A DNA stretch of 64,000 nt. Origin: Streptomyces sp. YIM 130001 (GTDB lineage: Bacteria > Actinomycetota > Actinomycetes > Streptomycetales > Streptomycetaceae). A program made the translations under genes and the position numbers. Every line of letters begins with the position of its first letter. Positions within the stretch are counted from its first letter, which is position 1. Location of the stretch: positions 1 to 64,000 of the forward strand of contig NZ_KZ984561.1 in assembly GCF_003574445.1 (NCBI RefSeq). Direction: 5' to 3'. Shown here piece after piece: positions 31,009 to 63,944 of this stretch. The notes under the pieces were generated by a model that saw only the letters and a list, made by a program, of their open reading frames with translations, was not told the origin of the DNA and ran no database searches.

Positions 31009-31479
31009 TCAGCGTTGATCGTGTCGCGTGGTGGTGGCTCGGAGCAGTGCGCGTCCCAACCAGTGGCCGGTGGCTGCTTGCAGCAGGGCGACCAGGAGTG
31101 TCAGCGCAATGGTCACGGCCGCCGAGGCGGGTAGCCCGGCGAGGCCGGCCGTCGTGCGTGCGGTGCCGCCGATCGTGTCCCCCGCGAGCGCGCGGATGAC
31201 CAGCAGTACGCCCCAGGGCACCGGTCCCAGCACGACCGGCAGCATGGCGGCGCGCAGGAGGCCTGGCCGACGCCATGCGCTGAAAGCTCCAGCGACGAGG
31301 CCGGCGACGAACGGCAGATACCAGAACTCCACCCACGCACCGAGCCCTACAACCACCACAGCCGACACAACAAGAACCGGTGCGGGCAGCGGTAGCTTTC
31401 CGGTTCCTCGTTGTGCGGTGGGTGCCGTGTCCGGGGTGATCTGGTCGGGTGGTTCCACGGCGGTGTCGGTGGCGGTCAT
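31009..31479 (-). CDS. Four-helix membrane protein at the end of the acylase operon
   Basis: A protein of 156 residues. The N-terminus is hydrophilic, and membrane segments follow: VLVVSAVVVVGLGAWVEFWYL, FVAGLVAGAFSAW, AAMLPVVLGPVPWGVLLVIRAL and AVTIALTLLVALLQAATGHW. The family is not recognised. The ATG lies one base after the penicillin-acylase stop, so it is translationally coupled and probably acts with the acylase in export, anchoring or tolerance at the membrane (inference). Confidence 0.7.
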   Translation of the reverse strand: MTATDTAVEPPDQITPDTAPTAQRGTGKLPLPAPVLVVSAVVVVGLGAWVEFWYLPFVAGLVAGAFSAWRRPGLLRAAMLPVVLGPVPWGVLLVIRALAGDTIGGTARTTAGLAGLPASAAVTIALTLLVALLQAATGHWLGRALLRATTTRHDQR

Positions 31480-31480
31480 G

Positions 31481-34009
31481 TCACTCTCCTGCTCGAAGGG
31501 ACCAGGTTGCCGTGGCGTTCGCCTTGCCGTCCGGCGGTGGCAAGGGCAGGTATTTCTTCTCTCTCCAGGGCGTGACGAGGTTGTCGTACCAGGTGGAGGT
31601 GGGGGTGTCGCTCTGTCCGCCGGGGTAGATCGCGAGTGCTCGGCGGGTGCTCGGTCCGGTCCAGTGGACGATGAGGCGGAAGCTCGGGCCGAAGGTCGAA
31701 TTCAGTTCGCCGCCTGCCGCGTTCACGGTCCAGGGGTTGCCTCCGTCGGCGTAGGGCTCGTATCCGAGTCCGGGGGCTTCGGTGATGGAGGGGATCTCTC
31801 GGGTGTGTAGTTTTCCCCAGGTCCAGGCGGAAGGGCGTGTGCCGAGCTTGTCGGTCAACTCGGCCACGGCCGTGCGGAATGCGGTCCGCATGGCTTGCGG
31901 GGCGGCGCGGTGCGCGGCGCCCGGTGGGGTGAAGGCCGCGTTGTCCGGGTCGTCGAGTGTGTAGTGCTGGAGCATCTCGCGCAGTGGGATGGGTGAGCGT
32001 TCGAGGTCGAGGATCCAGCGGTCCTTGCTCTCGGGGACCTTCTTCTCGTCCCACCACGGCTGGAAGACCTCATGAAGGTAGGAGTCCAGGAACGTCCACC
32101 ACACGGAGGCGGCGGGTGAGTCGCTGTCCATCGAGTGGTCCCACTTGGTGAGCAGGTCGCGCGCGGCACGTTGCCGGTCGGTGAGTTTCGTGCCGTCGAG
32201 CGCGGTGAGGAGCTCGGGTACGAGTTGTGCGGCCAGGTCGTCGGTGACGTTGTTCTGAAGTGCGGTGTAGTCCTCGGGCTTGAGGGCGTCCCGGTCGGTG
32301 TGGAACTGCTCGATCACCGTTTGCCGGTAGCCGGGGTCGAAGTTCATGGAGGTGCCGAGGAAGTACGGGTAGTCCGGGCCGGCGGGGCGTTGGTTGGTCG
32401 AGGCGACGAGGTGGCTGGGTGGGTCGTAGCTCTGGGGCAGCGCCTCGTAGGGGATGGTGCCCACGACGTCTTCGTGTCCGGTGCCGGAGAGGGGCAGCCA
32501 CGGCTGGGAGCCCTTGGGTGTCTGGGGGACGTCGCCGGCGAGGAGGGTGCCGATGTGCCCCTTGTCGTCGGCGTACACGAAGTTCAGTGCCGGGGCCTTC
32601 CAGCCGCGCAGTGCCTTGCGGAAGGAGGTGTAGTCGTGTGCTCGGTTGGCTTTGAGCAGTGCGTCCAGGTCGTTGTGTGCGAAGTTGCCCATCCAGTTGA
32701 CCGAGACCTGTTGGCCGAGCACTTTCATCATCGGTCCGTGCACGGTGAGTTCGGTGGTGTGGTCGACTGTCGGGCCGCCTCGTACCGGGATGGTGTAGTG
32801 CGCCTTCTTCATCGGCCGCCAGGCGCCCTTCCAGTAGTAGGAGTCGGGCCGGGTGGGCGAGAGCTGCTCTTCGTAGTAGAGCGTGCCGACGGTCTGGGCG
32901 TTGGTCAGGGACCAGGAGATGTGTTCGTTGTGGCCGACGAGTATCCCGGGTATGCCGGGCAGGGAGCCGCCTGTGACCTGGTAGCCGGGCGAGCGCAGGG
33001 ACACCTGGAACCAGTACGAGGGCAGTGTGGTCTGCAGGTGTGGGTCACCGGCCAGCATCGCGCCGCCTTTGGCCACGTTCGGGCCGTTCGCAGCCCAGGC
33101 GTTGCTGTTGAAGTCGAGTTGCCGCACGGAGTCGGGCAGGGCGGTGTCCTCGCGTGCGGGTGTGTGTGGCGTGGTCTGTGGGGCCGGGGAGGTGGATGTG
33201 CTCGCCGGGTCGGCCGCGTTGGCGTTCTGTGCGGTCAGGGGTGTCGGCGGCTCGTGCTGGTAGGGGCCGGGGTCGTAGGGGCGCTGGGAGGTGGCGGTCG
33301 GCGCCTGTACGGGGAACCAGTCCTTTGTCAGTTTCGGTCCGAGGGAGCGTTGCAGGAGTTTGTAGTCGATCGGGATGGTGTTGAAGTTCATCTGCTGGGT
33401 GAGCACGCCCTGTACGACGAGGGTGTCGGTCGGCGTCCAAGGCTTTGGCCGTACTCCGGTGAGTCCGTAGATCGTCGGCCATTCGCCGGTCTTCTCAAGC
33501 CTGCTCATCCAGGAGTTGATGCCCGAGGCGTACGCGGTCATCGCCTGGCCCGCTGCGCTGTCCGGCGCGGTGGCGTCCCATCGGGCGCGGGCGGTGCGCA
33601 GCAGTCCGAGGCTCAGTTCGAACTTGTCGCTCTTGACTCCGGCCGCTCCGATCAGTTCCGACAGGCGGCCCTGCCCCATCCTGCGCTGGAGGTCGAGTTG
33701 GGTGAACCGCAGCCGGGCGGTGACGTATCCCTGGGCGAGGAAGAGGTCGTGGTCGCTCTCGGCTTCGATGGATGCGTATCCCTCGGCGGTGAAGGACACC
33801 TTCACGGGTTTGTCGAGGTCGGGGAGTGTCAGGGACTCGGATCGGATGGTGGTCTGTGCTGCGGCGGATGCCCACGCTCCTCCGCCCGGCACGAGTGCTT
33901 TGCCGAGTGCGGGCACGGGGCCGTAGCCGACGCCGAGCAGCAGGAGCACGGCGAGGGCGACCGCGGCCGAGAAGACCAGGTGGATCGCGCGACTGACCTT
34001 GCTTGCCAT
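31481..34009 (-). CDS. Exported penicillin-acylase-family hydrolase
   Basis: A protein of 842 residues, the usual size of Ntn-hydrolase acylase precursors. The N-terminal hydrophobic segment (IHLVFSAAVALAVLLLLGVGY) is a signal anchor. An alpha-subunit region runs to about residue 240, followed by a Pro/Thr/Ala-rich spacer (about 240-296). The beta subunit then begins at DFNSNAWAANGPNVAKGGAM, where Ser302 is the expected self-processing nucleophile and GGAMLAGDPHL is family-typical. Related enzymes remove acyl chains from peptides or lactones outside the cytoplasm. It lies downstream of the NRPS that starts with a fatty-acyl-AMP ligase, so removing that acyl group during export is the obvious hypothesis. 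Confidence 0.85.
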   Translation of the reverse strand: MASKVSRAIHLVFSAAVALAVLLLLGVGYGPVPALGKALVPGGGAWASAAAQTTIRSESLTLPDLDKPVKVSFTAEGYASIEAESDHDLFLAQGYVTARLRFTQLDLQRRMGQGRLSELIGAAGVKSDKFELSLGLLRTARARWDATAPDSAAGQAMTAYASGINSWMSRLEKTGEWPTIYGLTGVRPKPWTPTDTLVVQGVLTQQMNFNTIPIDYKLLQRSLGPKLTKDWFPVQAPTATSQRPYDPGPYQHEPPTPLTAQNANAADPASTSTSPAPQTTPHTPAREDTALPDSVRQLDFNSNAWAANGPNVAKGGAMLAGDPHLQTTLPSYWFQVSLRSPGYQVTGGSLPGIPGILVGHNEHISWSLTNAQTVGTLYYEEQLSPTRPDSYYWKGAWRPMKKAHYTIPVRGGPTVDHTTELTVHGPMMKVLGQQVSVNWMGNFAHNDLDALLKANRAHDYTSFRKALRGWKAPALNFVYADDKGHIGTLLAGDVPQTPKGSQPWLPLSGTGHEDVVGTIPYEALPQSYDPPSHLVASTNQRPAGPDYPYFLGTSMNFDPGYRQTVIEQFHTDRDALKPEDYTALQNNVTDDLAAQLVPELLTALDGTKLTDRQRAARDLLTKWDHSMDSDSPAASVWWTFLDSYLHEVFQPWWDEKKVPESKDRWILDLERSPIPLREMLQHYTLDDPDNAAFTPPGAAHRAAPQAMRTAFRTAVAELTDKLGTRPSAWTWGKLHTREIPSITEAPGLGYEPYADGGNPWTVNAAGGELNSTFGPSFRLIVHWTGPSTRRALAIYPGGQSDTPTSTWYDNLVTPWREKKYLPLPPPDGKANATATWSLRAGE

Positions 34010-34124
34010 CGTGTCCTCGTCTTCGCAGGGGGCTCCGCCGGGGAAGTTTTGCCGTGCTCGGCGGTACCTGTGGGTCGGGAAGGTGTGTCAAGTTCTTCGC
34101 GGCCGATGGGCCGCGCGGTGTGTG

Positions 34125-37100
34125 TCAGGTCCGGTGTTCGCCGTCCGTTTCCATGGCGAGGAGTGCGGAGACCTCTTCGTCGGAGAGTTCGGACAGCCAT
34201 CCGAGTACGTCGTCCACCTCGTTGCTGCCGGCCTGGGTGAGCTGTCTGCTCTGTACCAGGGTGGACAGTCGCTCGACGGTCAGTGAGCCGCTGAGCAGTT
34301 CTCCGGCGGCCAGGGTGACTCCGAACGCGTCGCGCACGCGCATGGCGACGCGGGTGGCCATGAGGGAGTGCCCACCGAGTCGGAAGAAGTCGGCCGTGAC
34401 TGATGGCACGGGTACGCCCAGTACATCGCTCCAGATGGCGGTCATCCGGTGTTCCACGGGGTTGCGGGGTGCGATGGTGTCCTGCGGTGTCTCCGCGGGC
34501 GGGACCGGGTCGGGCAGCGCCGCGCGGTCGAGCTTGCCGTGTGGGCCTACCGGGAGCTCTGCCAGCACGGTCACCGCGTCCGGGACCAGGCCGGAGGGCA
34601 GGGACTGTTCGAGGTGGTCGCGCAGGGCGCCGGGTGAGGGGGGTTCTGCGCCTGTCGGCACGACCCAGGCCATCAGCCGTGGCTGGCCCGAGATGTCGGG
34701 TCGTGCTTCGACGACGGAGATGCGTACGAGCGGGTGACGGTTCAACACCGCCTCGATCTCGCCGGGTTCCACGCGCTGACCGCGGATCTTGAGCTGTCGG
34801 TCGAGTCGGCCCAGGTATTCGAAGGTGCCGTCGGGGTGCATGCGTGCCCGGTCGCCGGTCCGGTACAGGCGTGCGCCGTGATGGTAGGGGTCGGGCACGA
34901 AGCGTTCGGCGGTCAGGCCGGGGCGGCCGAGGTAGCCGCGGGCCGGGGCTGTTCCGCCGATGTAGAGCTCTCCGGGGACGAGCGGCGGGGCGATGCCGCC
35001 GGACGAGTCGAAGACGTACAGGTGGGTGCCGGCGATCGCGCGGCCGATGGGGACGCGGATCGGTCGGGTCTTCGTGGGTGTGACGGGCTGGGCGGTGACG
35101 TCGATCGCGGCTTCGGTCGGCCCGTAGAGGTTGTGCAGTTCCGTGTCGGGCAGTACTTCGGCGCAGCGTTCGGCCAGGGCGGGGGACAGTTCTTCGCCGA
35201 TGCATACGATTCGGCGCAGTGTCCGTGCGGCGTGTGCGGCGTCGGGGTCCTCGAGGAAGGTCTGCAGCATCGAGGGGACGAACTGGCAGCTGGTGACGGA
35301 CTGTCGAGCGATCAGGTGGGCGAGGTAGTGGGGGTCGCGGTGGCCTTCCGGGCGGGCGATGACCACGGTGGCGCCGGCGACGAGTGGTCCGAGCAGTTCG
35401 AGTCCGGCCACGTCGAAGCTGACCGGGGTTTTGAGCAGGACTGCCTCGCCGGCGTTCAGTTCGTAGGCTCGCTGGAACCATACGAGTTGGTTCGCGAGGG
35501 CGGCGTGGGTGGTCATGACGGCTTTGGGTTCGCCTGTCGAGCCCGAGGTGAACAGTATGTTGGCGAGGTGGTCGGGCAGTGGTTGCGGGAGTTCGCAGGG
35601 CTGGGCGCCGCTTTCTCTCGGGTCGACCAGCACGGTTTTCTCGGGAGGGGTGAGGTCCGGCAGGGAGCCGATGAGTATCCGTGCTCCGGAGCGGCTGATC
35701 TGTTGTGCGAGGCGGGCCGCCGGGTGGGCGGTGTCCAGGGGGAGGTAGGCGCCGCCGGCGAGCAGGACGGCGTATACCGCGATGATCAGCTCGGGTGACC
35801 GCGGCAGGCAGACGGCGACCGGTTCGTCGCGGTCCACGCCGAGTTCGTGCAGTCGGGCCGCGAGTTCGCGTGCCCGTGTGGTGAGGTCTCCGTAGGCGAG
35901 GGAGCCTCCGTCCCAGGACACGGCTGGTGCTTCGGGGGCCGCTTGTGCGACGCGCTCGATGATCTGGTGGACCAGCCCGTCGCCGAGTTCCGCCGGTCCT
36001 CCGTCGGTGACGGTCCGGGTGATCCGCTTGGCTTCGGCGGGTGTCAGGGCGGGCAGGCCGGCGACTGCGGTGGCCGGTTCGGTGAGCGCCGCGTCGAGGA
36101 GGGTGGGCAGTCCGGCCAGGAGGGCGGCGACGGTCTGTTCCTCGAACAGGTCGGCCGCGTAGACGGCGTGGCCGCTCAGTGAGCCGTCGTCCTGTGGGAC
36201 GAGGTGGACGGACAGTTCGAACTGGGCGCCGGGTGTGGGCAGTTCAAACGGTTCGGCGCGCACTCCCCGGGCTTCCCAGGGGGCGACGGGGAGGGCTTGG
36301 AGGGCGAGGAGGGCTCGTGCCAGTGGGGCGCGGCCGTCGGTGGGCCGTTCGGCGGCCGCGCGGACTATCTCGTCGTACGGCGGCTGCTCGTTGCCGTAGA
36401 CCGCGAGGCATTGGGTCCGCACCTCGTCGATGACGGTGTGGAAGTCGGCCGAGGCTGTTCGTACGCGCAGCGGCAGTGTGTCGGCGAGCATGCCGATGGC
36501 GGTTTCGGCGCCGGGCTGGTCTCGTCGCGCGGCCACGGTGGCGACCACCACGTCGTCCTGGCCGCTCCACCGGCTGAGGAGCATGCCGAAGGCGGCCATG
36601 AGGACCATGAAGGGGGTGGCTCCCCGGTCCGCGGCGAGCGTCCTTATCCGTTCGGCGAGATCGGCTGGTATCTCCACGGGCAGGGAGGCGCCGTGCCAGG
36701 AGGGGGTGGCCGGAACGGGGTGGTCGGTGGGCAGTTCCAGTGTCTGTGCCCCCTGGAGCCGGTCTCGCCATGCGGCGAGGGTCTCGTCGCTCCAGGGTTG
36801 TCGGGCGGGGACGGCTGTCGGCAGGTGCTCGACCGTTCCGCCGTCCCGGTAGGCGTTGCCGAGCCGCTGGAGCAGCAGGCCGAGCGACCAGCCGTCGAGT
36901 ACGGCGTGGTGGGCTGCGACGGCGAGCACCCAGTCCTGCGGTCCTTGCTGCAGCAGGAGCAGGCGTACGAGCGGGCCTGCGGTGAAGTCGAACGGTTCGG
37001 CGGCCAGTGCGCGCAGTTCCCCGGCCACGCTGTCTTCGCCGGAGGTCCGCAGGTCGCGGGAGGGGAGTTGGAACATGTCTGCGGTGGGGCGGACGGATGT

Positions 37101-39284
37101 GGTCAGTGTCCCGTCCGGTCCGGTCCGGAACACGGTGCGCAGGAGGGGGACTTCGTCGAAGAGTCCGGTGAGGCAGCGCTGAAGGAGTTGCGGGTCGAGC
37201 GGGCCGTGCAGCCGCAGTCCGCCGGCGACGTGGTAGGCGTCGCCGGCGCCCATGTGGTCGAGCAGCCACATGCGTTCCTGGTCGGGAGTGACGGCGGTGG
37301 GGTCCGCGGTCGTGGTCTCGGGCGGGTGCGCGGGCACGTTCGCCGGCAGTGCGGCGAGGTCGAGGAGGGTGAGGCCGTCCAGGAACCGGGTGAGTGGGAC
37401 GTCCACGCCGCGTGTTTCGCGCAGGGCCGTCCTGAGGCGGGCGGCGCCCAGCGAGCCGAGTCGTTGTCCGATGAGCGGTGTGTCGACGACGAGCGCCGCG
37501 GGGTCGATCTCCAGTTCGGCTGCGACGAGTTCGGCGAGCTCGGCGGGGATCGTCCCGGTTCCCTGGGCGGGTTTGTGGGCCGGTCCTGTTGTGCCTACCG
37601 GCTGGAGTGTTCCGGCGAGCCAGCGTGTGCGGCATTCCGAGCGCCTGACCTTGCCGCTGCTGGTTCGTGGGATCTTGCCGGTGCGGACGAGGACGACGTC
37701 GGCGAGGGCGAGTCCGTGTTCGGCCGCCACGGCTTCGCGTACGGCTGCGACGACGAGGGGTCCGTCTTGTTCCCTGAAGCCGCGGACCACTTCGTGTACG
37801 AGGACGACCTGTTCGGAGGTTCCGTTGTCGACGGACAGCGCCGCGCTTCGGCCCGGGTGCAGGAGCGGGTGGGCGCGCTCGGCGGTCGTCTCGATGTCCG
37901 GCGGGTAGAGGTTGCGGCCCCGCACGATGATCAGGTCCTTGATCCGGCCGTTCACGTACAGCTCGGTGCCGTGTGTGAAGCCGAGGTCTCCGGTGCGCAG
38001 GAAGGTGCGTTGCGGGTGTCCGTCGGCCACGCCCGCGAAGGTCTGGGCTGTCCGCTCGGGCCGGTTCCAGTAGCCGTGGGCGACGGTGGGGCCGCTGACC
38101 CAGACCTCGCCGACGGTGCCCGGGGGCTGTGGTCGACCGGTGTCGGGGTCGACGATCAGTACGAGGTCGTGGTGGTGTGCCCAGCCGCAGCTGGTCAGTT
38201 CGACCGCGGGCTCGTCGGGTGCGGCCTCGACGGCCCGGCCCTGTTCCATGTCCGGCCGCCGCAGGCGCAGGACGGTGGGGTCGGTCGCCGGGTCCGCTCT
38301 GCCGGTGACGAACAAGGTGGCCTCGGCGAGGCCGTAGCACGGGTAGAACGCCGAGCGCCGGAAGCCGTTGTCGCGGAAGGCTTCGGCGAAGGCGTCCAAG
38401 GTGGTCGGCCGTACCGGCTCGGCGCCGACGAGAGCGTGCCGCAGTGCGGACAGGTCGAGGCCGTCGTGGTCCTTCGGCTTGGCGCGGCGCAGTACTTCGG
38501 CGTAGGCGAAGTCGGGGGCGGCGGTGACGGTGGCTCTGGTGCGGCTGAGTGCTCGCAGCCAGCGCATGGGCTGGTGGAGGAAGGTCATCGGTGGGAGCAG
38601 GGTGCAGGCGAAGCCTGCGTGCACCGGCTGCAGGATGCCGCCGATGAGGCCCATGTCGTGGTAGGGCGGCAGCCAGCTCACGGCGCGGCTGTTCTCGTCG
38701 AGGCCGAGTGCCTGTGCGGTCGTCGCCGCGTTGTGCACGAGGTTGGCGTGGCTGAGCATGACGCCTTTGGGTGTGCCGGTGGATCCCGACGTGTACTGGA
38801 GGAATGCCAGGTCGTCCGGGGCTGCCTGCGGGTCCTGCCAGTCCTCCGCCGCGGTGGCGGTGTCGTCGGTGGTGACCCACTCGAGGGGGGCGGGCAGGTC
38901 GAGGTGGTCGCGGCGCTCGTCGACGGCGGTGAGCGTGGCGGAGTCGGTCAGGGCGAGCGTGGCGCCGCAGTCGGCGGCGATGGCCCGTACCCGCTCGAGG
39001 CCGCCTGTGCCGAGTGGCGGGTAGACGGGGACGGCGACCGCTCCTGCGTACAGGCAGCCGAAGAACGCGGTCACGTAGTCGGGGCCGGGCTGGTGGAGGA
39101 GCAGGACCCGGTCGCCGCGGCCGGCACGCTGCTGGATCAGTGCGGCCACCGCTCTGGCGCCGCGGTCGAGTTCGGCGTAGTCGAGCGCGCGGATCTCGGT
39201 CTCGGAGAGTTCGAACTCCAGGGCCAGGCGGTGGGGGGTGTTCTCAGCCCGCCGGCGGAGCGTCTCGATGAAGGTCGGGTACAC
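34125..39284 (-). CDS. NRPS: fatty-acyl-AMP ligase, carrier, C, A, PCP
   Basis: A protein of 1719 residues. Residues 1-565 are a FAAL-type ligase (QYTSGSTGTPKGVMLSHANL, SWLPPYHDMGLIGG, YRxxYGLAEATLFV-type region, TGDLGFTHGTELYVNGR). Residues 570-648 are a carrier with Ser611 in RLGSLGA, where the usual DSL is GSL. From 665 a condensation domain has HHAVLDG at 792-798. An adenylation domain starts at about 1105 (LFTSGSTGEPKAVM, NLYGPTEAAIDV, YRTGDRARMHPDGTFEYLGR). A PCP near the end has DFFRLGGHSLMATR. There is no thioesterase. By eye the A-domain code is D-V-L-Q-V-I-L-I-D-K, which I cannot assign. GTG 39284 follows GAGGAG. It should load a fatty acid and add the first residue. Confidence 0.92.
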   Translation of the reverse strand: MYPTFIETLRRRAENTPHRLALEFELSETEIRALDYAELDRGARAVAALIQQRAGRGDRVLLLHQPGPDYVTAFFGCLYAGAVAVPVYPPLGTGGLERVRAIAADCGATLALTDSATLTAVDERRDHLDLPAPLEWVTTDDTATAAEDWQDPQAAPDDLAFLQYTSGSTGTPKGVMLSHANLVHNAATTAQALGLDENSRAVSWLPPYHDMGLIGGILQPVHAGFACTLLPPMTFLHQPMRWLRALSRTRATVTAAPDFAYAEVLRRAKPKDHDGLDLSALRHALVGAEPVRPTTLDAFAEAFRDNGFRRSAFYPCYGLAEATLFVTGRADPATDPTVLRLRRPDMEQGRAVEAAPDEPAVELTSCGWAHHHDLVLIVDPDTGRPQPPGTVGEVWVSGPTVAHGYWNRPERTAQTFAGVADGHPQRTFLRTGDLGFTHGTELYVNGRIKDLIIVRGRNLYPPDIETTAERAHPLLHPGRSAALSVDNGTSEQVVLVHEVVRGFREQDGPLVVAAVREAVAAEHGLALADVVLVRTGKIPRTSSGKVRRSECRTRWLAGTLQPVGTTGPAHKPAQGTGTIPAELAELVAAELEIDPAALVVDTPLIGQRLGSLGAARLRTALRETRGVDVPLTRFLDGLTLLDLAALPANVPAHPPETTTADPTAVTPDQERMWLLDHMGAGDAYHVAGGLRLHGPLDPQLLQRCLTGLFDEVPLLRTVFRTGPDGTLTTSVRPTADMFQLPSRDLRTSGEDSVAGELRALAAEPFDFTAGPLVRLLLLQQGPQDWVLAVAAHHAVLDGWSLGLLLQRLGNAYRDGGTVEHLPTAVPARQPWSDETLAAWRDRLQGAQTLELPTDHPVPATPSWHGASLPVEIPADLAERIRTLAADRGATPFMVLMAAFGMLLSRWSGQDDVVVATVAARRDQPGAETAIGMLADTLPLRVRTASADFHTVIDEVRTQCLAVYGNEQPPYDEIVRAAAERPTDGRAPLARALLALQALPVAPWEARGVRAEPFELPTPGAQFELSVHLVPQDDGSLSGHAVYAADLFEEQTVAALLAGLPTLLDAALTEPATAVAGLPALTPAEAKRITRTVTDGGPAELGDGLVHQIIERVAQAAPEAPAVSWDGGSLAYGDLTTRARELAARLHELGVDRDEPVAVCLPRSPELIIAVYAVLLAGGAYLPLDTAHPAARLAQQISRSGARILIGSLPDLTPPEKTVLVDPRESGAQPCELPQPLPDHLANILFTSGSTGEPKAVMTTHAALANQLVWFQRAYELNAGEAVLLKTPVSFDVAGLELLGPLVAGATVVIARPEGHRDPHYLAHLIARQSVTSCQFVPSMLQTFLEDPDAAHAARTLRRIVCIGEELSPALAERCAEVLPDTELHNLYGPTEAAIDVTAQPVTPTKTRPIRVPIGRAIAGTHLYVFDSSGGIAPPLVPGELYIGGTAPARGYLGRPGLTAERFVPDPYHHGARLYRTGDRARMHPDGTFEYLGRLDRQLKIRGQRVEPGEIEAVLNRHPLVRISVVEARPDISGQPRLMAWVVPTGAEPPSPGALRDHLEQSLPSGLVPDAVTVLAELPVGPHGKLDRAALPDPVPPAETPQDTIAPRNPVEHRMTAIWSDVLGVPVPSVTADFFRLGGHSLMATRVAMRVRDAFGVTLAAGELLSGSLTVERLSTLVQSRQLTQAGSNEVDDVLGWLSELSDEEVSALLAMETDGEHRT

Positions 39285-39308: not shown

Positions 39309-40622
39309 TCAGCGGTAGCGGAGCATGAGGTCGTGGAAGCGGTCGGCACCGAAGCGCACGGCTTCGACGGGCACTCGCTCGTCGGCGGCGTGCATGGCGT
39401 CCTGGTAGCGGCTGCCGGCCGGGAGCAGCATCGGTACCCAGCCGTAGCAGGCGATGCCGAGTCCGGCGAAGAGCCGGGCGTCGGTGGACGCCGGGGTGAT
39501 CATGGGCAGGGGCAGTCCGTCGGGGTCGGCGTCGCGCATCACGGAGGCGATGGTGTCGAAGAAGCCGCCGAAGGCCGGCGGGGGCATGGCGTCGCCTTCC
39601 AGCAGCAGTTCGAGTTCGCCGTCCGGTCCGATGAGTGTGCGCAGTTCCGTTTCGAAGTCCTCGACCGTCCAGTCGCCCGGCAGGATGCGTCCGTCGAAGT
39701 CCACGGAGAACTCGCTCGGCAGCATGTTGATCTTCTCGGGCGTGCGGATGATGGTCGTGTTGACGGTGTTGCGCAGTACGGAGTCCAGGTAGACGGCGTC
39801 GGCCTCGGGCAGCAGGTCGTAGGGGATCTGCGCGGTGCTGTCGGGATCGCGCAGGTCGCGCAGCCGGCCGGCGAGCGGTTCGTCGGCGGCAGCGGCGAGG
39901 GCGTCGAGCATGCGGTCGAGGGCGGGGGTCACATGCTTCGGCAGGCGGCCCTCCTCCAGGCGCCCGAGCAGGTGGGCGAGTTTGCTCATCGCGGTGCCGG
40001 ACCAGCCCTGCCGCGAGGCGTGACCACCGCGTCCTCGACGTGAAAGGCGCATCCAGCAGGCGCGCTTCTCGGCGACCACGATGGGGTGCACACGGCCGGG
40101 CAGGCAGCTCAGTACCGCCCCGCCGTCCTCGCCCACTCCGTAGGCGATGCCGTCGAACAGGTCGGGGTGTTCCCTGACGAGATAGCCGGCGCCGACCTTG
40201 CTGCCTGCCTCCTCGTCGGGTGAGACGGCGAGGATGATGTCGCCCGCCGGCGCGGTGCCTTCGGCTCGCAACCGGTTCAGCGCGGAGACCATCATCGACA
40301 GGCTGCCCAGCATGTCGATGGCGCCACGGCCCCAGACGTGGCCGTCGATGATCCGCCCTTCGAAGGGCGGATGCGTCCAGTGCTGGCCGTCGGTGGGCAC
40401 CACATCGGCGTGTGCGTGCAGCAGCAACGGAGGCGCGAGACCCGCTCCGCGTACGCGGGCGACCAGGTTCGGGCGTTCGGGATCGGATCCGAGCAGTCGT
40501 ACGTCCGCGCCGGCGTTCTCCATGAGGGCGGCGACGTGACGGACACAGGCGCCTTCGTTCCCGGGTGGGTTGACTCCGCGGAACCTGATCATCTGCTGGA
40601 GCAGGGGCACCGGGTCGCTCAT
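39309..40622 (-). CDS. M20-family metallopeptidase/deacylase
   Basis: A protein of 437 residues. Zinc-site motifs are LLLHAHADVVPTD, HVWGRGAIDMLGS, AVSPDEEAGSK and a late His in YQDAMHAADERVP, with a dimerisation domain between. M20 enzymes hydrolyse terminal amide bonds (ArgE, DapE, LysK, carboxypeptidases). It sits in the AmCP operon after the LysZ-like gene. It could release or trim a peptide or acyl-amino acid, as a second hydrolase besides the LysK-like one at 50172-51275. ATG 40622 follows AAGGAG; a GTG at 40679 overlapping the previous stop is the alternative. FAAL-NRPS follows after 24 bases. Confidence 0.85.
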   Translation of the reverse strand: MSDPVPLLQQMIRFRGVNPPGNEGACVRHVAALMENAGADVRLLGSDPERPNLVARVRGAGLAPPLLLHAHADVVPTDGQHWTHPPFEGRIIDGHVWGRGAIDMLGSLSMMVSALNRLRAEGTAPAGDIILAVSPDEEAGSKVGAGYLVREHPDLFDGIAYGVGEDGGAVLSCLPGRVHPIVVAEKRACWMRLSRRGRGGHASRQGWSGTAMSKLAHLLGRLEEGRLPKHVTPALDRMLDALAAAADEPLAGRLRDLRDPDSTAQIPYDLLPEADAVYLDSVLRNTVNTTIIRTPEKINMLPSEFSVDFDGRILPGDWTVEDFETELRTLIGPDGELELLLEGDAMPPPAFGGFFDTIASVMRDADPDGLPLPMITPASTDARLFAGLGIACYGWVPMLLPAGSRYQDAMHAADERVPVEAVRFGADRFHDLMLRYR

Positions 40623-40675
40623 CGGGGTGTTCTCCTTGTCCGGGCGGGCGTGCGCGGTGGGCCGCGCCGTGCGGG

Positions 40676-41518
40676 TCACGGCCGTGCCGCGGCGGGTGCG
40701 GCGGCGCCGACGATCCGGGTGCCGCCTCGCCCGTCCAACGCGTCGGCGACGGTTTTGGGGTAGCGGCCGTCGGCGATCCGTACGTCCTCGACTCCGGCCT
40801 CCAACGCCTCGCGCGCCGCGGTGAGTTTGACGGTCATGCCGCCGCCGACCGCCGGGTCACGGCCGTCGTGCGTGCGGTACTCCGTGTGTACCGATCCCGG
40901 GTCGGAGCTGTCGGCGAGCACGCCCGGTGCGCCGGTGAGCAGTACCAGCCGCTGGGCACCCATCGCCGCGGCGACGCAGGCGGCGACCCGGTCGGCGTTG
41001 ACGTTGACGGGCCGGCCGTCCTCGGCGAGTGCGGGCGGTGACAGTACGGGCACCATCCCGTCGGCCAGCAAGGTGTGCAGCAGCGGCGTCTTGACCGAGG
41101 AGATCCGGCCGCTGCGGTCGTCGCGGACCACCACGGTCCGGCCGTCGACGACGGAGCGCAGCGCGGTCTTGCGCCGGGCGCGCAGCAGGCCGGCGTCGAG
41201 TCCGGTCAGTCCGACGGCGGGCACGGCGAGACGAGCCAGTTCCAGCAGCAGCGCCGGTTTGGCCTTCCCGGCGAGTGCCAGGGTGAGGACTTCGAGTGTG
41301 GCCGGGTCGGTGCGCCGGCTGACGGTGCCGTCCGGTGCCACCAGTTCACCGAGCGGCACGCCGAGGCGGCCGGCCAGTTCGGTGACCATCGCGGATCCGC
41401 CGTGCACCAGGACGACCTGCCTGCCTTCGCGGACCAGGTCGGCCACACCGGCGCATACTGCCTCGGTCTGCACTTCTGCGGTGCCGCCGCACTTCACCAC
41501 GGTCAGTCCCGTGCCCAC
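40676..41518 (-). CDS. lysZ: LysZ/ArgB-like amino-acid kinase (AmCP pathway)
   Basis: A protein of 280 residues of the amino acid kinase family: VVKCGGTAEV, VLVHGGSAMV, SPPALAEDGRPVNVNADRVA and GGMTVKLTAA are ArgB/LysZ blocks. In LysW pathways this enzyme phosphorylates the distal carboxylate of the amino acid held on the carrier protein. With AmCP, LysX- and LysY-like genes beside it, this role is much more likely than arginine synthesis. GTG 41518 follows AAGGAG. It overlaps the possible GTG start of the M20 gene. Confidence 0.85.
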   Translation of the reverse strand: MGTGLTVVKCGGTAEVQTEAVCAGVADLVREGRQVVLVHGGSAMVTELAGRLGVPLGELVAPDGTVSRRTDPATLEVLTLALAGKAKPALLLELARLAVPAVGLTGLDAGLLRARRKTALRSVVDGRTVVVRDDRSGRISSVKTPLLHTLLADGMVPVLSPPALAEDGRPVNVNADRVAACVAAAMGAQRLVLLTGAPGVLADSSDPGSVHTEYRTHDGRDPAVGGGMTVKLTAAREALEAGVEDVRIADGRYPKTVADALDGRGGTRIVGAAAPAAARP

Positions 41519-41646: not shown

Positions 41647-42672
41647 CTAGACGGGGTGCAGGCCGGGGAATTCGAGGCCGAGGTTCTCCGGCCATCCCAT
41701 GCGCACGTTCAGGCACTGAACCGCGCCGCCTGCGCCGCCTTTGACGAGGTTGTCCAGCGCTGCGACGGCCACCACGGTGGACGTGGCCGGGTCGGTGGCG
41801 AATCCGACGTCGCAGTAGTTGGTGCCGGACAGGATCTTGGGCTCGGGAAGCCGGTAGAGGCCGCGGCGCTGGGCGATGATGCGGACGAAGGGTTCGTCCT
41901 GGTAGTGGCCGCGGTACAGCCGCCGTACCGCCTTGTCGTCCAGGGGTTCGCGCACCGGCACCCGGCAGACCACCTGGGCACCGCGTACCGCCTCCACGCC
42001 GGTCGCGCCCATCCGTGCCTCGATGCCGGTCGCCTGCGCGATCTCGGCTTCGTGCCGGTGGCCCGTGGGTGCGAACAGCCGCATGGTGCCGCTGCGTTCG
42101 GCGTGCAGGTTCATCTGCTCTGCGCGCACGCCGGAGCCGCTCGAACCGATCCGCCCGTCCACCGTTACGGGTCCGTCGACCACGCCCGCCTCGGCGAGGG
42201 GGCGCAGTGCCAGGATCGATGCGACGGCCATGCAGCCGGGCATGCTGATGGCGTCGGCTCCGGCCAGTTCGGCGCGGTGTGTCTCCGGCAGTCCGGGGAC
42301 GAACGAGGCGAGCAACTCGGGTGCGGTGTGCGCCGTTTTGTAATAGCGCTCGTAGAGTTCCGGGTCCCGCAGCCGGAAGTCGGATCCGAGGTCGATCAGG
42401 CACTTGGCCTGTTCGCGCAATCGGGGTACGAGTTCCAGGCCGGCGGCCTGACCGACTGCCACGAACACCACGTCGTGATCACCCAGCGCGTCGGGGCCGA
42501 TGAACGTGAGGTCGGTCCGGCCGCGCAGGTTCGGGTGGACGCGGTCCACCCTGCTGCCTGCGAGCCTGGTGGACACCGCGGCGGCCACCCGCACCTCTCG
42601 GTGGTCGAGCAGCAACCGCAGCAGTTCACCGCCGATGTAGCCCGAGGCCCCGACTACCGCGACATCGATCAC
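41647..42672 (-). CDS. lysY: LysY/ArgC-like semialdehyde-forming reductase (AmCP pathway)
   Basis: A protein of 341 residues. The NAD(P)-binding motif is AVVGASGYIGGELLRLLLDH, the catalytic Cys is in SMPGCMAVASI, and NNAxR-type and active-site His regions occur in LFAPTGHRHEAEIAQ and GHYQDEPFVRI. It reduces the acyl phosphate made by the kinase to the semialdehyde while the substrate stays on the AmCP. GTG 42672 starts two bases after the AmCP stop, so the carrier and reductase are translated together. Confidence 0.88.
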   Translation of the reverse strand: MIDVAVVGASGYIGGELLRLLLDHREVRVAAAVSTRLAGSRVDRVHPNLRGRTDLTFIGPDALGDHDVVFVAVGQAAGLELVPRLREQAKCLIDLGSDFRLRDPELYERYYKTAHTAPELLASFVPGLPETHRAELAGADAISMPGCMAVASILALRPLAEAGVVDGPVTVDGRIGSSGSGVRAEQMNLHAERSGTMRLFAPTGHRHEAEIAQATGIEARMGATGVEAVRGAQVVCRVPVREPLDDKAVRRLYRGHYQDEPFVRIIAQRRGLYRLPEPKILSGTNYCDVGFATDPATSTVVAVAALDNLVKGGAGGAVQCLNVRMGWPENLGLEFPGLHPV

Positions 42673-42674
42673 GG

Positions 42675-42860
42675 CTACTCGCCCCAGTCCTCGTCGGCGT
42701 CGGGTGCCAGCGCCAGCAGCAGCGGTGACACTCCCACGACCTCGAGTTCGGCCGCGCACTCCGGGCATTCGACGATCTCGCCGGCCCGTGCGTCGCTCTC
42801 CACTCCTACCCGGCCCTCGCACTCCGGGCAGGCTTCCACGGTCGTCTCCGCTGTGGGCAT
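42675..42860 (-). CDS. lysW: Amino-group carrier protein (LysW-like AmCP)
   Basis: A protein of 61 residues. Two CPEC knuckles (ACPECEGRV and VECPECAAE) form the zinc ribbon, followed by an acidic stretch. The C-terminus is EDWGE, the hallmark of LysW carriers, whose terminal Glu side-chain carboxylate forms an isopeptide with the amino group of the substrate. Strong ribosome binding site AGGAGGAGAGG before ATG 42860. It is the first gene of the minus-strand run AmCP, LysY-, LysZ-, M20, FAAL-NRPS, acylase, membrane protein. No other LysW-like gene or lysine/arginine pathway genes are seen here, which points to secondary metabolism. Confidence 0.93.
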   Translation of the reverse strand: MPTAETTVEACPECEGRVGVESDARAGEIVECPECAAELEVVGVSPLLLALAPDADEDWGE

Positions 42861-43005: not shown

Positions 43006-43401
43006 ATGACGAGCAGATTCACGGAACTGGCAGTCGACTGTCGCGATCCGGAGAGGCTCGCGGCCTTCTGGTGCGAGGTCTTGGGCTTCGAGGTGATCGA
43101 CCGGAGCGAGGGCAAGGTCGAGATCGGCTCCTGGGTGCCGACCGTCGAGGAGGTCCGGGCCCGTCAGATGCCGCCCACGGTGCTGTTCATCGAGGTGCCC
43201 GAGGGCAGGTCGGTGAAGAACCGGCTTCACCTCGACGTCAGTCCGATCGACCGCAGTACCGACGACGAGGCGAACAGGCTGCTCGCCCTCGGGGCCACCA
43301 GGGCCGATGTCGGGCAGGGCCCGGACCGGAAATGGGTGGTCATGGCCGACCCCGAGGGCAACGAGTTCTGTGTGCTGCGCAGCCTGGCCCCGAAGAGCTA
43401 G
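43006..43401 (+). CDS. VOC (glyoxalase/bleomycin-resistance-like) protein
   Basis: A protein of 131 residues with two beta-alpha-beta-beta-beta modules: FTELAVDCRDPERLAAFWCE, LGFEVIDRSEGKVEIGS, then VKNRLHLDVSPIDRS and WVVMADPEGNEFCVLRS. The pattern His/Glu metal-site residues plus the DPEGNEFC end is standard for this superfamily, which includes antibiotic-binding resistance proteins and isomerases. It is one of only two plus-strand genes inside the cluster, opposite the AmCP operon. A self-protection role by drug binding is possible, but no residue proves it. Confidence 0.8.
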   Translation: MTSRFTELAVDCRDPERLAAFWCEVLGFEVIDRSEGKVEIGSWVPTVEEVRARQMPPTVLFIEVPEGRSVKNRLHLDVSPIDRSTDDEANRLLALGATRADVGQGPDRKWVVMADPEGNEFCVLRSLAPKS

Positions 43402-43414
43402 GGCGTCGTTCGGA

Positions 43415-44461
43415 TCAGCGGGGAACGGGCCGTGCGAGGAGATCGAGGGCGCGGTCCTGGTCGGCCAGGAGCGCCGCGGACCTGCGCTCGAGGTCGTCCG
43501 CCGCTGCCGCGGTGTCGGCACGGGCGTTGGCGACGATGATCCGTACCGCGCTCCAGTGGTGGGCGACCCGCTCCACCTGACGGGATGCCTCCGTCAATTC
43601 GGGCCGGCCGAAGGTGTGGCCCGCGGCGGCGAGCCAGTCGGCGTGCACTCCGGTCTCGGCGAGTACGGTGCCGGCCACGACGAAGGTCTCGTCCACCACC
43701 TCGGTATCGCCGCCCGTGCGCATCCGCGCTGCGGCGGCGTCGAGGTAGCGGGCCAGGCCGCGGCGCCCGGCGAACAGTTCCGCGCCGTCGTCGGCGTATC
43801 CGTCCCGCAGGGTGCGATCGCCTTCCAGCGCGGCCACGTTGGCGCTGATCACCGTGCGCACATGGTCGAGGTCCCAGGGCGGCATGTCGGGGCCGACCGT
43901 GACCTCCAGCCATCGCCCGTCGATCGGATTGCGGGTGAAGAACAGGTCCCGGTCGTGGTCCTCGGGGTTGGCCGAGGCGCGTGCGGCGGCGAACTCGGCT
44001 CGTGTGATGGCGCCTTGGAAGCGTGGCGGCACCGGATCGGCCAGCAGCACCTCGTCCCGTTCGTCGTCGAACCCGTACACGGTCAGCAGGTGGTTGGTGT
44101 GCACGTCCCGGTATGCCGGACGGAAAGGCAGATGGAAGTTGTCGACCGCCGCGGCGACGGCGTGTCCGTCCCTGAGCGCGTCGCGTACTTGTGTCCAGGC
44201 CGTCTCGGGGTCCGGTGGGCGGTGCCAGCGCGATGTCACCGGATGGTGCGGGGCCACTGCCCCGAGCAGCGACTCGACGCCGAAGGGGACGTAGTACTCC
44301 TCGCGCCGCAGATCGCCCGACCGGTAGCCGAATCCCCAGGCCGCGCCGAGTACGTGGAGCGGGTCGGCGCCATGGCAGCCGAGCAGCACCCCCATCGTCG
44401 CGTGCAGGCAGTGTCCGAGGTCGTGGCGCCACGGCCGCACGTTGTCCAGCTCGACTCTCAT
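43415..44461 (-). CDS. BtrH-like acyltransferase (cysteine-protease fold)
   Basis: A protein of 348 residues. The N-terminal BtrH_N-type domain shows GHCLHATMGVLLGCHG with the probable nucleophile Cys, HTNHLLTVYGFDDERDEVLL with the His, and an Asp in ADPVPP. The C-terminal half is helical (DUF4872-like). In butirosin synthesis BtrH moves an acyl group from a carrier protein to an amine. Here it could transfer a peptidyl or acyl group from a carrier to the amine of an AmCP-derived amino acid, which matters because the NRPSs lack a release domain. ATG 44461 overlaps the stop of the upstream gene (ATGA). Confidence 0.75.
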   Translation of the reverse strand: MRVELDNVRPWRHDLGHCLHATMGVLLGCHGADPLHVLGAAWGFGYRSGDLRREEYYVPFGVESLLGAVAPHHPVTSRWHRPPDPETAWTQVRDALRDGHAVAAAVDNFHLPFRPAYRDVHTNHLLTVYGFDDERDEVLLADPVPPRFQGAITRAEFAAARASANPEDHDRDLFFTRNPIDGRWLEVTVGPDMPPWDLDHVRTVISANVAALEGDRTLRDGYADDGAELFAGRRGLARYLDAAAARMRTGGDTEVVDETFVVAGTVLAETGVHADWLAAAGHTFGRPELTEASRQVERVAHHWSAVRIIVANARADTAAAADDLERRSAALLADQDRALDLLARPVPR

Positions 44462-45057
44462 GCCGCCTCCGTCACCAGGGTCAGCGCGAACAGATGCATG
44501 GCCGGGTTGTGGGGCAGGACGAGCGCGCTCAATCCGTCGGCCACCGCGAGAGGCACCCGCTGGTGCCAGATCGACGGGCTCATCGTGTTCTGCTCGTGTC
44601 TCGGGTACAGCATCGCGGTGGTCCGGAAGGCGAGACGCTCACCGAACCGCGGACCGGTCTGGGGCCAGAAATCCGACAGCCGCAGCCATTGCCTGCGGAC
44701 GGTTCCGTCGGCGTACTCGACGAGCACGCTGTCTTCGGTACGGCGCTCGGCGGCGCCGAGGACGTGGATCCAGTCGGCCCGCACGGCAGGCAGCGGGATG
44801 CGTTGGCCGCGGCAGCGCAGATGGTCCGGCCGCTTCCCGTCGGCCGCGGGGAAGCGAAACGGCACCCGGTCGAGTTCCGTGAGGTTGCCGCAGGGCAGTT
44901 CCTCGGCCGGAAAGGCATTGCCCCAGATGTTGAACGCACCGCGACCGGAGCGGCTGTTCGGTTCGACGCCGACGCTGTCGAGGTAGTCCTCGATCGCGAC
45001 CGGGTGGGCCGCTCCGACCGTGGACCGGACGAGAGTGGGAGTGACGTGCTTGACCAC
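44458..45057 (-). CDS. Unknown beta-sandwich-like protein coupled to the BtrH-like gene
   Basis: A protein of 199 residues. Recognisable patches are NSRSGRGAFNIWGNAFPAEE, VPFRFPAADGKRPDHLRCRG, WIHVLGAAERRTEDSVLVEY, LRLSDFWPQT and LPHNPAMHLFALTLV. The order FNxxGxAFPAEEL, VPFxFP, PDxxxxxGQxIPLP and VxYADGT resembles galactose-binding-like beta-sandwich domains of bacterial glycoside hydrolases, but here it stands alone and without a signal peptide. GTG 45057 follows CCAAGGAGG. It overlaps the BtrH-like gene by ATGA, so the pair should act together. The function is unknown; one idea is a binding partner for the substrate of the transferase. Confidence 0.65.
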   Translation of the reverse strand: MVKHVTPTLVRSTVGAAHPVAIEDYLDSVGVEPNSRSGRGAFNIWGNAFPAEELPCGNLTELDRVPFRFPAADGKRPDHLRCRGQRIPLPAVRADWIHVLGAAERRTEDSVLVEYADGTVRRQWLRLSDFWPQTGPRFGERLAFRTTAMLYPRHEQNTMSPSIWHQRVPLAVADGLSALVLPHNPAMHLFALTLVTEAA

Positions 45058-45093: not shown

Positions 45094-45882
45094 GTGGAGA
45101 CGCGTGAGCGTGATCCGGCCGTCATGGAGCGGACCGCGGCGCTGGTCCGGGCCGCGTTCGCCGTGGGCGACCGGTATCCCGGTCTGCCGCCCGCCGACGG
45201 TTCCGCGGAGACGGGCGCCGACGTACTGGCCGAGCTGGAGCGCGGGACACGGATGTGGACGGGCTTGGACCGGCGCGGCGACGTGGTCGGCTGTGTGCGC
45301 GCGATACCCGGCGCGGACGTGTGGGCGGTACGGCGGCTCGCGGTCGCACCGCGGGCCAGGGGCAGGTCGGTCGGACGGCTCTTGATGCACGCGATCGAGG
45401 ACGGTGCGCGCGCCGGTGGTGCGGCACGCGTGGTCCTCGACGCCGTGGTCGAGCGCGGCAACCCGCCGTTCTACTGCCGGCTGGGCTATCGCACCACGGC
45501 TCATTTCCCCGGGCCTGACAAGCCGTTGTCCGAGGTCCGTATGGTGAAGGATCTCGCCGCTGCGGATGAGGAGTTGCCCTATCCGTGGGGCGGCGAGCCC
45601 GTCCCGTTGTGGGACGGGCCGATGCGGGTGTGGTTCGGCGGGCCGCGGGGCAGTGTGGCGCTGCCCGCCCAGACCGGCGCCGCCCTCGAGGCGGGGCTTG
45701 CGGCGCTGGCCGGGCTCGCGGCACTGCATGTGGGCACTCCGGCGCGGTTCCTCGGCGGCGACGGACTCCCCCGCTCCGGTGGCCTCCTGGTGGATTCCCG
45801 GCCCACCGAGGCCGTGCCCGCGTTCCGGATGCCGCGGCGCGTGGACGGCGGTGCGCTCGCGCTGTGGCGCATCGGCGGCTGA
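45094..45882 (+). CDS. GNAT-family N-acetyltransferase with C-terminal extension
   Basis: A protein of 262 residues. The GNAT core occupies the first ~150: ALVRAAFAVGDRYPGLPPAD, WAVRRLAVAPRARGRSVGRLL (acetyl-CoA loop RxxGRSVG), VVLDAVVERGNPPFYCRLGY. A C-terminal part of about 110 residues is rich in Gly/Leu and unassigned. GTG 45094 gives the longest N-terminus; ATG 45124 is possible. It lies between the two minus-strand operons, converging with the transketolase gene (5-base gap). It may acetylate a pathway amine as protecting group or resistance mechanism, both known for this kind of cluster. Confidence 0.8.
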   Translation: METRERDPAVMERTAALVRAAFAVGDRYPGLPPADGSAETGADVLAELERGTRMWTGLDRRGDVVGCVRAIPGADVWAVRRLAVAPRARGRSVGRLLMHAIEDGARAGGAARVVLDAVVERGNPPFYCRLGYRTTAHFPGPDKPLSEVRMVKDLAAADEELPYPWGGEPVPLWDGPMRVWFGGPRGSVALPAQTGAALEAGLAALAGLAALHVGTPARFLGGDGLPRSGGLLVDSRPTEAVPAFRMPRRVDGGALALWRIGG

Positions 45883-49041: not shown

Positions 49042-49319
49042 GCGGCAGCCTCCTCGATGTGGACCCATACGCCCGGACGGTCGGGCAGGCGGATCGCGAT
49101 GGGGTTCTCGGGCCGGATGAGCGGGACGCGGGCCCGGCCCAGGCCCGGCGGGCAGTGGATCCATTCGGGCTCCACCGCGTCGGGGTAGTGCACCAGGACT
49201 TCGGCCCCGTCGACGGCTCGCGCCTGGTCGTGGCCGTCGAACACCAGCGGCAGCCAGTCCCGGTGGCCGTGGGGCAGGGGCACGAGGCCGCCTCGGCACT
49301 CGATGGAGTCGTCACGCAC
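49038..49319 (-). CDS. 93-residue unknown protein in the AmCP operon
   Basis: It begins MRDDSIECRGGLVPLPHGHR, continues DWLPLVFDGHDQARAVDGAE and LVHYPDAVEPEWIHCPPGLG, and ends PGVWVHIEEAAA. It looks like a small beta-rich domain; no known family is recognised. Its GTG overlaps the end of the LysX-like gene by eight bases and its stop overlaps the aminotransferase start. This tight placement suggests a role on the carrier-bound intermediate, for example as a docking or accessory subunit (inference). Confidence 0.65.
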   Translation of the reverse strand: MRDDSIECRGGLVPLPHGHRDWLPLVFDGHDQARAVDGAEVLVHYPDAVEPEWIHCPPGLGRARVPLIRPENPIAIRLPDRPGVWVHIEEAAA

Positions 49320-63126: not shown

Positions 63127-63170
63127 GCCTGTTCCTCCCAATCGGCCTTGCGGCCGTGCGTCCGACATGC

Positions 63171-63932: not shown

Positions 63933-63944
63933 GCGACACCACAC

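Follow-up and report, generated by a model that had tools for sequence, protein, structure and literature searches.

The stretch analyzed here comprises positions 1 to 64,000 of contig NZ_KZ984561.1 of Streptomyces sp. YIM 130001 (64,000 nucleotides; referred to below as the window) and carries a nonribosomal peptide synthetase (NRPS) cluster whose starter gene begins with a fatty-acyl-AMP ligase (FAAL) domain. The gene that follows on the same strand, 115 bases downstream, encodes a penicillin-acylase-type N-terminal nucleophile (Ntn) hydrolase, and directly behind it, one base apart, lies a gene for a membrane protein of 156 amino acids (aa) that an earlier note on this DNA did not mention (Table 1). 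We hold with good confidence that the best reading of this arrangement is that the exported acylase takes the FAAL-loaded chain off once outside the cell.

In Pfam searches, the starter NRPS contains two AMP-binding domains (the second at residues 1110 to 1452), two PP-binding domains (the last at 1614 to 1676), a Condensation domain at 663 to 1088, and a DIP2-like AMP C-domain at 450 to 561 (PF23024, 38.1 bits against a cut-off of 27). The NCBIfam fatty-acyl-AMP-ligase models cover approximately residues 6 to 561, all of them below their curated cut-offs (466.5, 460, 455.5, and 433 bits against 922, 775, 975, and 600, respectively). Core motifs of the FAAL, the carrier, and the condensation (C) domain (HHAVLDG) are retained across the orthologues in three other Streptomyces strains, SID14478, Streptomyces parvulus JCM 4068, and Streptomyces sp. 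CL7, as is the serine of the first carrier, which stands in GSL in the window and in DSL in the three orthologues (around residues 609 to 611, in an alignment of 593 to 633). This FAAL is the single one of its kind in the 8.04-Mb genome, and five further matches at E ≤ 1e-20 are only 31 to 33% identical. The letters extracted from the first adenylation (A) domain are DVLQVILID in the window, DVLHVILID in S. parvulus, and DVRHVSQID in SID14478; at what we take to be the Stachelhaus positions, and with the code table as we assume it, they look Ser-like, and the identity of the first residue is a guess.

The acylase matches PF01804 (Penicil_amidase) over its full length (E 3e-176, 588.8 bits against a cut-off of 21.3). 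The beta chains of solved structures in the PDB start to align at residue 302, within DFNSNAW, and we therefore assign Ser302 as the nucleophile. Residues S302, H324, N539, and R562 are unchanged in all 40 aligned sequences; Asn and Arg play assisting catalytic roles in Ntn acylases. The hydrophobic N-terminal stretch has a counterpart in each of the 10 NRPS-linked relatives subjected to the hydropathy scan, and the enzyme is probably exported by way of it, either as a cleaved signal or as a retained anchor. An AlphaFold2 model (pLDDT 88.1, pTM 0.88) finds its top solved fold in D-succinylase (7ea4; Z 38.5, root mean square deviation [rmsd] 2.6, 696 residues aligned, 25% identity), followed by cephalosporin acylase (Z 36.5), MacQ (Z 31.7), penicillin G acylase (Z 29.6), and PvdQ (Z ~27.5). 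The phmmer scores are 152 bits for D-succinylase, 133 for penicillin G acylase, 45 for PvdQ, and 38 for MacQ, and the PvdQ equivalog model NF051460 scored 57.1 bits, far below its cut-off of 950. L325 and V358 align with Phe24 and Phe57 of penicillin G acylase, which presumably line the acyl pocket; the two aliphatic residues would suit an aliphatic chain and prove nothing. Three of the four PF01804 genes in the genome are paralogues that lie apart from the cluster. The earlier note had described an NRPS that opens with a FAAL and a carrier, followed in the same direction by a penicillin-acylase-type Ntn hydrolase with its processing serine in FNSNAW and a signal anchor, and both descriptions agree with the domains and invariant residues found here. 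The phylogenetic placement that it proposed was carried as far as solved relatives, among which D-succinylase is nearest and penicillin G and cephalosporin acylases come next, with PvdQ and MacQ lower by sequence.

The order of a second M20 peptidase gene (M20a), the FAAL NRPS gene, and the acylase gene is identical in SID14478, S. parvulus JCM 4068, and CL7, in which the acylase is 79 to 84% identical to that of the window. DNA of S. parvulus matches positions 38782 to 81999 with gaps, the main pieces at 83 to 87% identity, and the mapping extends left to 31040. In CL7, the orthologous cluster resides on the 458-kb linear plasmid pSALBX2 (NZ_CP139176.1, ~29736 to 86229; L145 and L176), and the cluster may therefore travel. 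Nonsynonymous divergence (dN) between the window and the three orthologues was 0.093, 0.130, and 0.120 for the acylase, with dN/dS of 0.24 to 0.33, and 0.107, 0.138, and 0.112 for the FAAL NRPS, with dN/dS of 0.28 to 0.33. By these estimates, the two genes are under similar purifying selection and are maintained as functional at like rates.

Matches to the acylase at E 1e-30 occur in 43 of 61 genomes, its own included; outside the window, identity exceeds 35% only in G046 (52%), G038 (49%), and G049 (39%). A genome scan returned 354 acylase relatives, of which 80 were kept, 26 (L053 to L078) at 38 to 84% identity and 54 at 33% or less. We sorted the NRPS-linked acylases into five cluster types by NRPS layout: type 1 comprises the window, SID14478, S. 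parvulus, and CL7; type 2, Streptomyces megasporus, JJ66, and CBMA123; type 3, two Amycolatopsis strains and Catenulispora rubra (G049, the genome of L074); type 4, G038; and type 5, G046. Eleven of these 12 acylases share their contig with a FAAL-bearing NRPS, at distances from adjacent to ~24 kb; the exception is CBMA123, a draft genome in which acylase and FAAL are on different contigs, that of the FAAL being 5 kb long. As controls we took all other FAAL matches at 1e-60 in four of these genomes (G064, G066, G067, and G068); none of the 10 FAALs, two of which (L185 and L192) belong to NRPSs, had an acylase match at E 1e-5 within stretches of 17 to 20 kb. A major facilitator superfamily (MFS) gene is part of the cluster and is also found ~2 kb or less from the acylase in G046, Amycolatopsis vancoresmycina, and C. 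rubra.

An acylase tree was built from 42 rows, namely 36 scanned loci, the window, G046, G038, and the three paralogues of the same genome; L070, with a broken frame, and the partial L078 were omitted. FAAL-linked acylases occupy two places in it, one of eight rows (SH-aLRT 97) and one made up of the three type 3 rows (100). In a tree of FAALs, those from acylase clusters form one group that takes in a single control; its support, 88, is not strong. A chance neighbourhood of FAAL and acylase was rejected in view of the presence of just one such FAAL in 8 Mb, the conserved order, and the clade-wide link. The 54 distant acylase loci (L079 to L132) gave no FAAL match at the level of the cluster FAALs; near one of them, L104, there is a 25% acyl-ligase match. 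Separately, four distant acylases of 29 to 30% identity from Anaerolineae and related Chloroflexota (L108, L128, L130, and L131) lie near NRPS-like modules, perhaps a separate link between acylases and NRPSs.

The small membrane protein has approximately three hydrophobic stretches and matched no Pfam family above cut-off. Positions W53, L93, G115, T127, and W140 are invariant in all 11 aligned clade sequences. Sequence homologues stand behind the acylase in SID14478, S. parvulus, CL7, S. megasporus, JJ66, CBMA123, G038, and G046, and weaker matches do so in Trebonia and in one Amycolatopsis (L071). Six further loci (L057 to L062) have a small hydrophobic open reading frame (ORF) in the same place, and the four tried (L057, L058, L061, and L062) align. 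The queries behind the weaker matches ran from stop to stop and partly covered acylase DNA in another frame; hits were counted just where they lay over the membrane protein. A simple ORF scan did not reveal the protein in L065, L068, L069, L073, L074, L076, and L077; L063, L064, L066, and L067, with less than 300 bases after the acylase, were outside that scan. The membrane protein thus accompanies the acylase through most of the clade, in actinomycetes, Bacillota, and others, and because it is present also where an NRPS is absent, we regard it as a partner of the acylase and not of the FAAL. Docking of the acylase or presentation of the lipid is our guess at its role, and its persistence behind the acylase across phyla offers a new lead on how such an enzyme meets a lipid substrate. 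The two genes form the outer limit of the tested genes common to the window, SID14478, and S. parvulus; beyond that limit, CL7 and S. parvulus have an antiporter gene in common, which the window lacks in the tested stretch.

The remainder of the cluster points to amino-group carrier protein (AmCP) chemistry. The window holds an AmCP ending in EDWGE, LysX, LysY, LysZ, and LysK homologues (LysX, LysZ, and LysK narrowly under the NCBIfam equivalog cut-offs), a two-part transketolase, and a sugar-type aminotransferase. Outside the window on the same contig (C14) are a gene at 64120 to 64866 whose product is 81% identical to an annotated sulfotransferase of CL7 and the 3'-phosphoadenosine-5'-phosphosulfate genes cysC, cysD, and cysN. 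Azinomycin is described as arising through AmCP, a transketolase pair, an aminotransferase, and sulfation followed by aziridine closure (PMC9570651, in the part of the review available), and it is this scheme that leads us to read the present genes as a route to an azabicycle by sulfation. Such a ring is probably present in the product, judging from the gene content.

LysX matches were found in 19 of 150 genomes of the same genus, the genome of the window included. Sixteen other AmCP loci from 15 genomes were read over stretches of 4.9 to 75.7 kb, and five weak LysX matches (33 to 34%) were left out. Contig ends cut the stretches of G002 (22.7 kb), G139 (4.9 kb), G160, G080, and G078:C235, and absences carry less weight there for that reason. 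Within the stretches read, none of the 16 loci had an acylase match at E 1e-3, and the FAAL query gave matches at the adenylation-domain level only (25 to 36%). Eight of the 16 have both the 198-aa protein and BtrH, and relatives of the sulfotransferase were present in 7 of 13 AmCP loci tested, one of them partial. In the nearest cluster, G078:C216, the AmCP operon is the same and a relative of M20a (53%) is present, but the 75.7-kb contig gave no FAAL, acylase, or sulfotransferase match. AlkZ-like self-resistance glycosylases have been noted in clusters resembling those of ficellomycin and vazabitide (PMC9040887, in the portion available). The present genome encodes seven AlkZ-like proteins, none of them on C14. 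With five of the seven as queries (one, L182, possibly in the wrong frame), matches were obtained in only 3 of the 16 other AmCP loci (G113, G114, and G123), and there were none in the window's contig stretch or in the stretches of CL7 and S. parvulus, the last covered by three stretches that do not include the acylase region. A trade-off between AlkZ and a mask is suggested by this distribution, in too few loci to prove it.

The most likely route, on these data, is the following. The FAAL would activate a fatty acid and transfer it to the first carrier, and the C domain would acylate the first amino acid, for which the A-domain signature is Ser-like. The peptide would be assembled and tailored inside the cell and probably exported as an N-acyl lipopeptide, with the acyl chain serving as a mask, or as a membrane tether, while the compound is inside. 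The exported acylase, self-cleaved at Ser302 and situated outside the membrane, perhaps held there by the small membrane protein, would then hydrolyze the fatty-acyl amide to release a free-amine product. That product would very likely contain a residue derived from AmCP-bound diaminodihydroxyheptanoic acid (DADH), probably as a 1-azabicyclo[3.1.0]hexane formed via sulfation and loss of sulfate. The earlier note's idea that the peptide starts with an acyl chain and loses it outside the cell is well supported by genome comparison (the FAAL link in 11 of 12 cases against 0 of 10 controls, and the similar dN/dS), and the AmCP context that it assumed is borne out at the gene level; its suggestion that the mask protects the producer from a reactive azabicycle is a hypothesis. 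As a whole, the explanation from acyl start through export and deacylation to an AmCP product, with the chain as either mask or tether, appears reasonably probable to us. The stricter combination of deacylation, azabicycle, and masking falls somewhat short of even chances. It is conceivable, although we put this forward tentatively, that FAAL starter, Ntn-clade acylase, and membrane partner make up a recurring mask-and-release set that has been joined at least twice to unrelated actinomycete NRPS lines, here to the AmCP line, where it would yield a lipid-masked aziridine DNA alkylator unmasked outside the cell, instead of or beside DNA-repair self-resistance.

Several observations weigh against this explanation. 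The acylases of S. megasporus and JJ66 are encoded ~24 kb from the FAAL gene, on the other strand. The acylase tree requires two recruitments, so that the FAAL link is recurrent but does not amount to five independent events. Sixteen clade members in the tree, from Bacillota, Chloroflexota/Dormibacterota, Trebonia kvetii, and an actinomycete metagenome-assembled genome, have no NRPS in their stretches, some of which are just 6 to 12 kb long, and six genomes of such members gave no FAAL match at 1e-60. The acylase family is therefore older than the FAAL link, and its first role was probably the hydrolysis of other amides. In five Chloroflexota loci (L066, L068, L069, L077, and L078), an AMP-ligase gene, in L077 acetyl-CoA-synthetase-like, lies directly upstream of the acylase, an arrangement that suggests amide breakdown with reuse of the acid. 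The membrane protein also follows NRPS-free acylases, and neither gene alone implies prodrug maturation; nor do the fold matches reveal the substrate of the acylase. On the chemical side, Sulfotransfer_1 (PF00685) and Sulfotransfer_3 (PF13469) matched nothing in the whole genome, with the same outcome in a motif scan, and the putative sulfotransferase owes its name to its identity to a database annotation. Finally, the second M20 peptidase of the operon could be the deacylase instead.

Of the competing explanations, the one that survives best accepts deacylation and reassigns the chain, which would be a membrane tether or a guide for export and tailoring, with the acylase as a maturation enzyme only. 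PvdQ strips myristate in siderophore maturation (PMC10587159, in the text available), the small membrane protein behind the acylase is in keeping with such a role, and relatives of the acylase serve NRPS clusters without AmCP gene matches, so that the system does not depend on a reactive azabicycle. The absence of FAAL and acylase from the stretches read of the other 16 AmCP loci, in contrast, indicates that AmCP products do not as a rule require tethering, and the AlkZ distribution leans weakly to protection; we consider this explanation possible but unlikely. It is less likely again that the product remains a lipopeptide, with an acylase that scavenges, or hydrolyzes N-acyl compounds in general, and lies at the cluster edge by chance. 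Its position, with the membrane protein, at the outer edge of the common genes would suit such a role, and the Chloroflexota loci would suit a catabolic ancestor. The adjacency conserved in four genomes, the clade-wide FAAL link, a dN/dS like that of the neighbouring gene, and the three PF01804 paralogues elsewhere in the genome all speak against it, and we regard it as improbable.

We give very little credence to the proposal that M20a strips the acyl chain inside the cell and leaves the exported acylase with another job. The gene is directly upstream of the FAAL NRPS, and the M20 family includes N-acyl amino-acid amidohydrolases (matches below cut-off), but the relative in G078:C216 occurs on a 75.7-kb contig that gave neither a FAAL nor an acylase match, and M20a therefore belongs to AmCP or peptide chemistry and not to the cap. 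An acylase for quorum quenching or beta-lactams, directed against competitors or conferring resistance, is the least credible alternative, having nothing in its favour beyond the superfamily and fold common to MacQ, PvdQ, penicillin G acylase, and cephalosporin acylase, and having against it the phmmer and equivalog scores given above, the location of the gene, and the FAAL link.

Extracellular deacylation by the acylase has precedents of a kind. Saframycin differs from the product proposed here in its tetrahydroisoquinoline warhead; its SfmE is not known to be an Ntn acylase, and we know of no AmCP genes for saframycin. It is like the proposal in that a DNA-alkylating NRPS product is exported with a fatty chain, which membrane-anchored SfmE cuts off outside (PMC9570651, in the part available). 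The acylases Tem25 of telomycin, encoded within its own cluster, and GdnD of glidonin are linked, as the window acylase would be, to the fatty chain carried by a lipopeptide of NRPS origin; the available text of PMC10587159 mentions no AmCP chemistry for them and states that their natural function is yet to be resolved. PvdQ of the pyoverdine pathway is an Ntn acylase that takes myristate off an NRPS precursor and has the same fold (2wyb; Z 27.4, rmsd 3.5, 484 residues aligned), differing in its 20 to 22% identity to the window acylase, which misses the PvdQ equivalog cut-off. Corramycin and vioprolide are made by FAAL-led NRPSs and lack a fatty acid in the final product; deacylation is stated for vioprolide and proposed for corramycin, with the hydrolase ComB as a hypothesis only, and the systems differ in being myxobacterial and, in the portion of PMC10099666 available, in having no AmCP genes mentioned. 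Azinomycin, vazabitide A, and ficellomycin resemble the window in AmCP, transketolase pair, aminotransferase, and sulfation-aziridine steps, and the word "acylase" does not occur in the available text of that review (PMC9570651).

N-acyl masking with extracellular removal is thus already known as a kind. The union of a FAAL/acylase pair with AmCP chemistry was not found in literature searches for the combination, and as far as these searches show, that union is new, as is a FAAL-linked Ntn clade that extends across several cluster types. We also count the membrane partner as new, a point on which no literature search was made. If masking by the chain and release by the acylase hold true, the pair would provide a sequence handle for lipid-masked NRPS products in actinomycetes. 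Such products would escape notice since the acylated form is short-lived and the freed form reactive, and neither is easily isolated. The window would then add a masked compound to the azabicycle family, and comparison with the close AmCP cluster G078:C216, which lacks the pair, would set the mask against DNA-repair resistance in a natural test.

Read leftwards from 63944, the minus strand runs from a thioesterase and three NRPS genes through the dioxygenase, the AmCP genes, and M20a to the FAAL NRPS, the acylase, and the membrane protein, and Table 1 keeps this order; genes for VOC and GNAT proteins are interspersed on the plus strand. The A-domain signature DVWHVSLID of the methyltransferase-containing NRPS is presumably that of Ser, by the code as we take it to be.

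Table 1. Features of the FAAL/acylase cluster, in leftward order (positions are those of the window; MT, methyltransferase; PCP, peptidyl carrier protein)
Feature	Position	Strand	Basis or remark
Stand-alone thioesterase	63171..63944	-	Domain match
NRPS, C-A-PCP	59686..63174	-	Domain matches
NRPS, C-A-MT-PCP, A-domain signature DVWHVSLID	55208..59689	-	Domain matches
NRPS, C-A-PCP	52041..55211	-	Start approximate
2-Oxoglutarate (2OG)-Fe dioxygenase	51265..52044	-	Domain match
LysK-type M20 hydrolase	50172..51275	-	Profile matches
LysX-type ATP-grasp ligase	49312..50175	-	Start approximate
DegT-type aminotransferase	47713..49041	-	Start approximate
Transketolase, N half	46880..47716	-	Start approximate
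Transketolase, C half	45888..46883	-	Start approximate
GNAT acetyltransferase	45094..45879	+	81% to annotated CL7 gene
Unknown protein of ~198 aa, co-occurring with BtrH in AmCP loci	44458..45057	-	AmCP locus comparison
BtrH-like protein	43415..44461	-	Also in CL7
VOC-family protein	43006..43401	+	86% to annotated CL7 gene
AmCP (LysW homologue), ending in EDWGE	42675..42860	-	Annotated LysW in CL7
LysY-type semialdehyde dehydrogenase	41647..42672	-	Start inferred from CL7
LysZ-type kinase	40676..41518	-	Start inferred from CL7 annotation
M20 peptidase (second, not LysK type; M20a)	39309..40679	-	Conserved order in orthologues
NRPS starter, FAAL-carrier-C-A-PCP, 1719 aa	34125..39284	-	Pfam domains and motifs
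FAAL domain, residues 1-565	37590..39284	-	Sole copy of its kind in genome; FAAL tree
Penicillin-amidase-family Ntn acylase, probably exported, 842 aa	31481..34009	-	Pfam PF01804, AlphaFold2 model, fold match
Hydrophobic stretch, residues 9-27, putative signal peptide or anchor	33929..33985	-	Hydropathy scan
Ser302 codon, predicted N-terminal nucleophile after self-cleavage (FN/SNAW)	33104..33106	-	PDB beta-chain alignment; invariant in 40/40
Membrane protein of 156 aa, no known family, likely acylase partner	31009..31479	-	59-64% identity in three orthologous clusters

To the right of the window, C14 continues with the sulfotransferase gene, an AMP ligase, an MFS exporter, and NRPS proteins of C-A-PCP and C-PCP-thioesterase layout, then with two acyl-CoA dehydrogenases, a thioesterase, MbtH, a LuxR-type regulator, and a third acyl-CoA dehydrogenase, and then with an adenylation protein, a PCP, a chlorinating enzyme, CysC, CysD, and CysN. 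The adenylation protein, free carrier, and chlorinating enzyme (C14:80890-83688; L010/L011), the last 93% identical to that of CL7, adjoin an acyl-CoA dehydrogenase, and the product may, by this gene content, hold a chlorinated or cyclized residue besides the AmCP-derived one. Two small proteins of unknown family, encoded at 44458 to 45057 and 49041 to 49319, recur in AmCP loci. A radical SAM protein (16618 to 17673) and a pentapeptide-repeat protein (27133 to 28815), both encoded further left than the cluster, are apparently unrelated to it.

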